This document shows positions 6,365-7,243 of a stretch of DNA of 64,000 nucleotides, piece after piece. The stretch's first letter is position 1; every line of letters starts with the position of its first letter. The position numbers and the translations under genes are program-made. The notes under the pieces are model-generated. The model was not told the DNA's origin, did not search any database, and saw nothing but the letters and a program-made list of their open reading frames with translations. Origin of the DNA: Flavobacterium sp. LPB0248 (GTDB lineage: Bacteria > Bacteroidota > Bacteroidia > Flavobacteriales > Flavobacteriaceae); the NCBI RefSeq assembly GCF_013388355.1, contig NZ_CP058246.1:868001-932000 (forward strand), written 5' to 3'.

Positions 6365-7243
6365 ATGATACACGCAAAAAACATACATAAATTCTACGAC
6401 AAACTTGAAGTTTTAAAAGGAGTTGATTTACATATTAAAAAAGGCGAAATTGTTTCTATAGTTGGAGCTTCGGGTGCTGGTAAAACTACTTTATTGCAGA
6501 TTTTAGGAACTCTTGACAAACCAGACCATAACCCAGACTCCTCTCTAACCATCAATGGTAAAAATGTTTTAGAACTGCAAAATATCAAAAATGACAATTC
6601 AAATCAGAAAAAAGCCTTCAAAATCATTACTTGGTTAGGAGTCTTTTATTTCATTTCATTGGCAGTGTTTGTATTGTTTTTTAGAAGTAAAATAGAAAAC
6701 AACATTTTCGGCTATGGTACTTGGGCAATAATTCTCATGCCTTCTCTTCTATTATTTTTTTACTATAATCGTTACTTCAAAAAGAAAAGCAAGCAAGACA
6801 AAGTTTTATCTGATTTTAGAAATTTGAATTTAGGTTTCATTTTTCAATTTCATCAACTATTGCCTGAATTTACAGCTTTAGAAAACGTTTGTATTCCAGC
6901 TCACATTGCAGGCAAAAAAACAGCCGAAACTGAAGAAGAAGCAAGAAAACTCCTTTCTTATCTCGGACTTTCACATAGAATCAACCATAAACCTAGCGAA
7001 CTTTCGGGCGGAGAACAGCAGCGTGTTGCAGTTGCAAGAGCTTTAATCAATAAACCAGATGTCATTTTTGCAGACGAACCTTCAGGAAATCTGGACACGC
7101 ATTCTGCCGAAAACTTGCATCAATTATTTTTTCAGCTTCGAGACGAATTCGGACAAACTTTTGTAATTGTAACTCACAACGAAGAATTGGCCAATATGGC
7201 TGATAGAAAATTAGTAATGTCCGACGGACAAATTCTTAATTAA
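6365..7243 (+). CDS. LolD-like ABC transporter ATPase with transmembrane hairpin insertion
   Basis: ATP-binding subunit closest to LolD/MacB-type ATPases, which energise lipoprotein release or related extracytoplasmic work. Visible motifs are Walker A GASGAGKT (34-41), Q-loop region FIFQFHQLLPEF (158-169), signature LSGGE (213-217), Walker B VIFADEP (233-239) and H-loop His271. The protein is 292 residues against about 220-230 for LolD. The excess is a block at about 75-147 containing two hydrophobic helices (about 86-106 and 114-134) flanked by Lys-rich segments, placed between Walker A and the Q-loop. Both ends of such a hairpin would be cytoplasmic, so the ATPase fold could still form and be tethered to the membrane. 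All catalytic motifs are intact. Its stop overlaps the next start (TAATG). No cognate permease is adjacent. Confidence 0.85.
   Translation: MIHAKNIHKFYDKLEVLKGVDLHIKKGEIVSIVGASGAGKTTLLQILGTLDKPDHNPDSSLTINGKNVLELQNIKNDNSNQKKAFKIITWLGVFYFISLAVFVLFFRSKIENNIFGYGTWAIILMPSLLLFFYYNRYFKKKSKQDKVLSDFRNLNLGFIFQFHQLLPEFTALENVCIPAHIAGKKTAETEEEARKLLSYLGLSHRINHKPSELSGGEQQRVAVARALINKPDVIFADEPSGNLDTHSAENLHQLFFQLRDEFGQTFVIVTHNEELANMADRKLVMSDGQILN
6587..6805 (+). other. In-frame insertion encoding two membrane helices
   Basis: This is the approximate extent, by comparison with the usual LolD layout, of the extra segment within the ABC ATPase. It begins after LELQNIK and ends before LSDFRN. Base composition is not obviously different from its surroundings, and no direct repeats flank it. 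Confidence 0.7.

Follow-up and report, generated by a model that had tools for sequence, protein, structure and literature searches.

The analysed DNA is a stretch of 64,000 nucleotides from Flavobacterium sp. LPB0248 (NZ_CP058246.1, positions 868,001 to 932,000; hereafter the window), which encodes at positions 6365 to 7243 of its forward strand a LolD-like ATP-binding cassette (ABC) ATPase of 292 amino acids, probably the motor subunit of a lipoprotein exporter. The catalytic fold of this protein contains an insertion of 72 residues that very probably represents a membrane hairpin. ABC ATPase subunits of the LolD kind are treated as soluble motors that are held only via their permease, and the hairpin-bearing protein is likely to represent an optional anchor on such a normally soluble motor, because close relatives lack the hairpin. 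We lean slightly towards the interpretation that it is an accessory part for tethering or tuning at the LolC/E contact. The optional, selected and predicted membrane hairpin located exactly before the LolD-like side helix is a more specific finding than that of the first-pass annotation of this DNA, which had described about 73 extra residues with two hydrophobic helices and lysine-rich flanks at positions 6587 to 6805.

The comparison with orthologues delimits the insertion to residues 73 to 144 (72 codons, positions 6581 to 6796, forward strand), which agrees with the earlier extent within three codons. Orthologues in most other Flavobacterium that were read comprise about 220 amino acids and lack the insertion. 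The search of named genomes was evaluated for its best 80 loci (17 with and 63 without the hairpin), and nothing in the 63 hairpin-free ones corresponds to residues 73 to 144. Accordingly large is the spacing between the Walker A motif and the strand of the Q-loop, which amounts to 115 residues here, 43 to 44 in the nearest hairpin-free orthologues and 40 to 53 across the hairpin-free loci read. Hairpin-free LolD proteins of other Flavobacterium, for instance P0097 and L033, are about 90% identical where aligned, but they are devoid of the 72 residues. The insertion starts its hydrophobic part with a first segment (residues 87 to 106, positions 6623 to 6682; predicted first transmembrane helix), followed by the predicted periplasmic turn RSKIENN (residues 107 to 113, positions 6683 to 6703), a second segment with its hydropathy peak at residues 114 to 131 (residues 114 to 134, positions 6704 to 6766; predicted second transmembrane helix) and the predicted cytoplasmic lysine-rich flank NRYFKKKSKQ (residues 135 to 144, positions 6767 to 6796). 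The 18-residue Kyte-Doolittle means reach 2.42 (residues 87 to 104) and 1.77 (residues 114 to 131), and the 12 residues that follow the second window carry a net charge of +5. The two hydrophobic helices of the first-pass annotation are thus confirmed as hydrophobic segments, with a lysine-rich flank on the C-terminal side, and its proposal that an even number of helices leaves both flanks cytoplasmic is likely to be correct, as judged from the charge pattern.

The layout is conserved among the 150 sequences that were collected for their long middle segment (127 distinct segments; the window is included and some genomes are represented twice). Walker A and the Q-loop strand are 115 residues apart in 136 sequences, the remaining 14 having a distance of 111 to 114, and both hydrophobic peaks have a mean of at least 1.3 in 149 sequences, with medians of 2.3 and 2.2 for the two stretches. 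In all 150 cases, the C-terminal flank exceeds the turn in positive charge (median net charges: N-terminal flank +1, turn 0, 12 residues after the second peak +5). The combination of two hydrophobic segments with a positive-inside charge pattern marks the protein as a predicted integral membrane protein. Tyr95, located in the first segment, is the sole invariant column in an alignment of 15 diverse hairpins. The AlphaFold2 model exhibits an ABC fold with a helical hairpin (helices 78 to 110 and 114 to 155, break at residues 111 to 113), so that the segment would not be part of the globular core and the fold of the ATPase, as previously supposed, appears to be kept despite the insertion. Since membrane insertion is a prediction and the model depicts just a helical hairpin, the same segment could be regarded as a soluble, helical and hydrophobic arm whose packing partner is the ATPase itself or another protein. 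The hydropathy medians of the two 18-residue stretches and the strongly positive C-terminal flank make this very improbable; such hydrophobic stretches next to a positive flank are typical of membrane helices.

The affiliation of the protein with the ABC ATPases is documented by its PF00005 score (102.2 bits; cut-off 25) and by the complete set of catalytic motifs in the expected order, all of which were located in the 292-residue frame in agreement with the first-pass annotation. They comprise on the forward strand the Walker A motif GASGAGKT (residues 34 to 41, positions 6464 to 6487), the strand LGFIFQ with the Q-loop residue Gln161 (positions 6830 to 6847), the signature LSGGEQQ (residues 213 to 219, positions 7001 to 7021), the Walker B motif DVIFADE (residues 232 to 238, positions 7058 to 7078) and the H-loop IVTHN with His271 (positions 7166 to 7180). 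TIGR02211 (LolD) is the top-scoring NCBIfam family with 252.4 bits, which is below its equivalog cut-off of 307.75, and we therefore name the protein LolD-like instead of filing it under this model. The shortfall does not result from the hairpin alone, because the hairpin-free orthologue P0097 likewise remains under the cut-off (276.1 bits). The second-best match in the same genome is only 45% identical over residues 141 to 290, thus indicating that the gene is the sole one of its kind.

The localization of the insertion is the key to its proposed function. It ends at residue 144 and immediately precedes the side helix DKVLSDFRNL (residues 145 to 154, positions 6797 to 6826), the equivalent of residues 78 to 87 of Escherichia coli LolD. 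Window residue 147 aligns with residue 80 of the E. coli LolD chains in a search of solved structures, which corresponds to an offset of 67. According to PMC11671585, the side helix of E. coli LolD touches the coupling helices of LolC and LolE in the LolCDE complex, and the LolD positions mentioned therein map to window residues 152, 145 and 160. The earlier placement between Walker A and Q-loop is hence correct, and it can be refined to a site directly before the side helix that touches the permease coupling helices in E. coli. Given this position, the hairpin should sit at the contact between motor and channel, and a membrane hairpin at residues 73 to 144 would, by analogy, begin at the permease-touching face of the ATPase. 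PMC8333309 describes that the power stroke starts as the two LolD subunits close and the coupling helices shift.

We infer the following mechanism. The two hydrophobic stretches would form a membrane hairpin that tethers LolD beside LolC/LolE-type permeases, presumably the products of two unlinked LolC/E homologues. The hairpin would pack against or near the permease helices, thereby raising the number of membrane helices in the complex from 8 to 12. It would hold LolD at the membrane and might stiffen or tune the site where the side helix meets the coupling helix. The tether would be located at the contact that probably transmits ATP binding. Its role would be accessory, because sister species with orthologous permeases possess a hairpin-free LolD.

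The candidate partners are encoded elsewhere in the genome. No permease gene is adjacent to lolD in the window, which means that the gene lies next to neither lolF nor lolC/lolE. Two putative LolC/E-type permeases with TIGR02212 as their top model, L153 (positions 3295059 to 3296318 of the same genome; 181.9 bits) and L160 (2642088 to 2643305; 167.4 bits), are both unlinked to lolD, unlike the lolF-lolD operon that is called typical in PMC11784454. The first-pass annotation had correctly noted the lack of an adjacent permease gene, but this is nothing special: the two permeases are unlinked, and in other genera, too, none of 27 hairpin-free lolD loci has a match to the four tested permeases in its flanks of 1.5 kb. 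Relatives of both L153 and L160 are present in 30 of 30 hairpin and 30 of 30 hairpin-free genomes, a sample that consists of 30 of the 31 hairpin genomes (one left out) and the 30 hairpin-free genomes with the top LolD scores. Further permeases with an FtsX domain exist in the genome besides L153 and L160, and two of these (L148 and L150) are orphan and MacB-like. As an aside, the genome also encodes the ATPase L002 without a permease in its fetched flanks.

Several findings weigh against the interpretation of a membrane hairpin that acts at the LolC/E contact. The membrane insertion is predicted from hydropathy, charge and the folds of the monomer, and the first AlphaFold2 model has a predicted local distance difference test score below 50 at residues 6 to 21, 37 to 39 and 288 to 292. 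L153 and L160 both remain under the TIGR02212 cut-off of 362.45, their genes are unlinked to lolD, and the two further orphan MacB-like permeases are present in the same genome, so that the pairing of the ATPase with L153 and L160 is presumptive. The ratio of nonsynonymous to synonymous substitutions (dN/dS) in the insert is about four times that of the core. Finally, no permease column separates the 30 hairpin from the 30 hairpin-free genomes at a level of at least 27 of 30, and 61 near relatives reveal no fixed difference between the hairpin states in any column of the LolD core, residues 180 and 187 showing just a shift in frequency. A co-adapted docking surface is hence not visible, an outcome that favours an accessory module over a docking surface shaped by tight co-evolution.

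The absence of co-varying permease sites, the unlinked position of lolD and the two LolC/E genes, and the rapid sequence drift of an insert whose hydrophobicity is kept would also fit a plain anchor, which would do no more than retain free LolD at the inner membrane to find permeases from distant genes, without touching or tuning them. We consider this unlikely, although it is the strongest competitor, because a mere anchor would be less neutral directly at the side helix than anywhere else. Moreover, the genes are unlinked in the hairpin-free relatives too, as the 27 loci of other genera document, and gene dispersal therefore fails to explain the patchy distribution of the hairpin.

The distribution was investigated at several taxonomic levels. 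In the genus sample, 289 of 299 Flavobacterium genomes match the LolD-like ATPase at E <= 1e-70, and at least 31 of the 299, the source genome included, contain a full-length and stop-free match that covers the insert; the other listed matches cover the C-terminal part only, where strongly diverged hairpins could hide. Together with the spacing of 115 residues in 136 of 150 sequences, this excludes an assembly error as the source of the insertion. Flavobacterium johnsoniae, a non-pathogenic laboratory organism, is among the species whose LolD has the hairpin (P0024, assigned to this species by its source). A hairpin profile, which would miss hairpins unlike its members, yielded two strong matches among 397 genomes of the family, nine among 376 of the order and two among 375 of the class (overlapping samples); all belong to Flavobacterium, and no clear match outside this genus was found in the three samples. 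In the family sample, this profile (A2) matched 92 of the 397 genomes at E <= 0.01, just two of them strongly. The best weak match, G554 (E 6e-7), is located at an N-terminal hydrophobic segment near the start of a long frame, and the part of this frame that was read contains no ABC signature; the further loci L165, L166 and L173 lack a long frame with this signature, and the other weak matches were taken as composition noise. A protein search with the insert alone, aimed at occurrences outside LolD, retrieved 13 matches at E <= 1, namely, 12 full-length LolD-like ABC ATPases and P0121 (186 amino acids), which also carries PF00005. The insert alone has no match in a Pfam search.

Hairpins at the same site beyond Flavobacterium were found in Aquimarina aquimarini (L024), Aquimarina sp. 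I32.4 (P0122) and a Bacteroidia metagenome-assembled genome (L023). They share the two-helix layout, but homology with the Flavobacterium hairpins was not demonstrated by block-shuffling, as the real score against the Flavobacterium profile was reached in 15 (L024), 24 (P0122) and 66 (L023) of 500 shuffles each. L024 and L023 are among the best 80 loci of the named genomes, whereas a protein search with the Aquimarina hairpin returned a single protein, again from Aquimarina (P0122). The shuffling results make a second origin at the same site possible, and the Aquimarina hairpin may have arisen separately. Within Flavobacterium, homology of the hairpin types finds support for P0095 and P0096, each of which has one profile where 0 of 500 shuffles reach the real score (P0096 with the other profile: 2 of 500), and weaker support for five P0099-type hairpins (0 to 3 of 500).

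The insert evolves under purifying selection with a pooled dN/dS of 0.163, compared to 0.039 in the core (94 non-independent pairs with a core dS of 0.1 to 0.8 among 40 unique genes), thus indicating that it is kept as a protein while drifting faster than the core. In the same gene pairs, dS is 1.02 in the hairpin and 0.64 in the core, in line with intragenic recombination. The LolD core tree (146 rows, 56 with the hairpin) requires 11 hairpin changes, at least four of which are forced by well-supported branches. The tree of the two unlinked permeases (60 genomes, 30 with the hairpin) requires six changes, at least five of them forced, and that of the neighbouring genes (78 loci, 16 with the hairpin) six, at least four forced; for the latter, two of the 80 named loci without the TIGR02757 gene were dropped, and many rows cover less than half of the columns. 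On this tree, the hairpin-bearing F. hydatis and the hairpin-free F. shii are separated by only about 0.02 changes per site.

The presence of the hairpin hence flips between close species on three trees. Taken together with its fast evolution and with the absence of visible co-adaptation in permeases and core, this could reflect a nearly neutral insertion that a permissive loop tolerates, that recombination both spreads and removes, and that has little or no function. The insert dN/dS of 0.16, the identical spacing in 136 of 150 sequences and the retention of the hydrophobic stretches and the positive C-terminal flank render this explanation rather improbable. A divergent tract is located just 3' of the hairpin. 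Four close pairs with opposite hairpin states were picked by hand, two of them seemingly with the same F. shii genome (G175, L033). In the 50 codons that begin at the 3' end of the hairpin, they exhibit 73 of 161 synonymously changed codons, compared to 280 of 959 in 20 hand-picked same-state pairs. No such difference is seen over the following 90 codons (122 of 344 versus 586 of 1737). Without the pair G004/G175, the first value is 59 of 119 (p 1.4e-5), and the later 90 codons remain inconspicuous (p 0.62). As far as can be judged from the codons, the divergent tract fits a short intragenic replacement.

The gene downstream of lolD (7243 to 8940) encodes a membrane protein of the LIC_10190 family (NF047510, 474 bits) and overlaps lolD by one base (TAATG, 7241 to 7245). 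The overlap and the polytopic nature of its product suggested that the ATPase might serve this protein, and the first-pass annotation had suggested checking whether it co-occurs with the hairpin. However, a same-strand relative is found near lolD in 4 of the 17 named hairpin loci and in 22 of the 63 hairpin-free ones (Fisher p 0.56), and the candidate was rejected as partner; we regard this possibility as extremely remote. The gene is located between lolD and the TIGR02757 gene in some species only and represents an optional neighbour independent of the hairpin. The TIGR02757/DUF2400 gene of unknown function (8933 to 9697) is a conserved neighbour, which is found near lolD in 78 of the 80 named loci; in other genera, 17 of 27 loci have it at a distance of no more than 1.5 kb. 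Hairpin-free lolD loci of Flavobacterium, such as P0097 and L033, have the same gene neighbours as the hairpin locus.

Among known systems, the closest comparison is LolD of the LolCDE/LolDF exporter (type VII ABC), whose solved chains of 218 to 241 amino acids are too short for the insert, whereas the protein described here has a two-helix hairpin before the side helix. MacB, represented by 5gko_A and 5nik_J among the structural matches, resembles the protein described here in that a related ATPase and membrane helices share a single chain. The ATPase domain of MacB, however, is fused to an entire permease, whereas here just a hairpin is present within the ATPase fold. A literature search retrieved no account of an ABC ATPase domain, be it LolD or another, with membrane helices in its interior, a weak negative with subscription papers mostly outside its coverage. 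The chances are about even that the hairpin represents a new ABC transporter layout, in which the ATPase itself adds membrane helices inside its catalytic fold that are joined to the side helix, as an optional module swapped among Flavobacterium by short recombination in lolD and perhaps of separate origin in Aquimarina.

PMC11885536 reports that gliding motility and type IX secretion of Bacteroidota depend crucially on LolA and LolB, which would provide a read-out. The optional hairpin at the coupling contact represents a natural experiment on the coupling of motor and channel in a lipoprotein exporter, with close species that possess or lack it and orthologous permeases in both.
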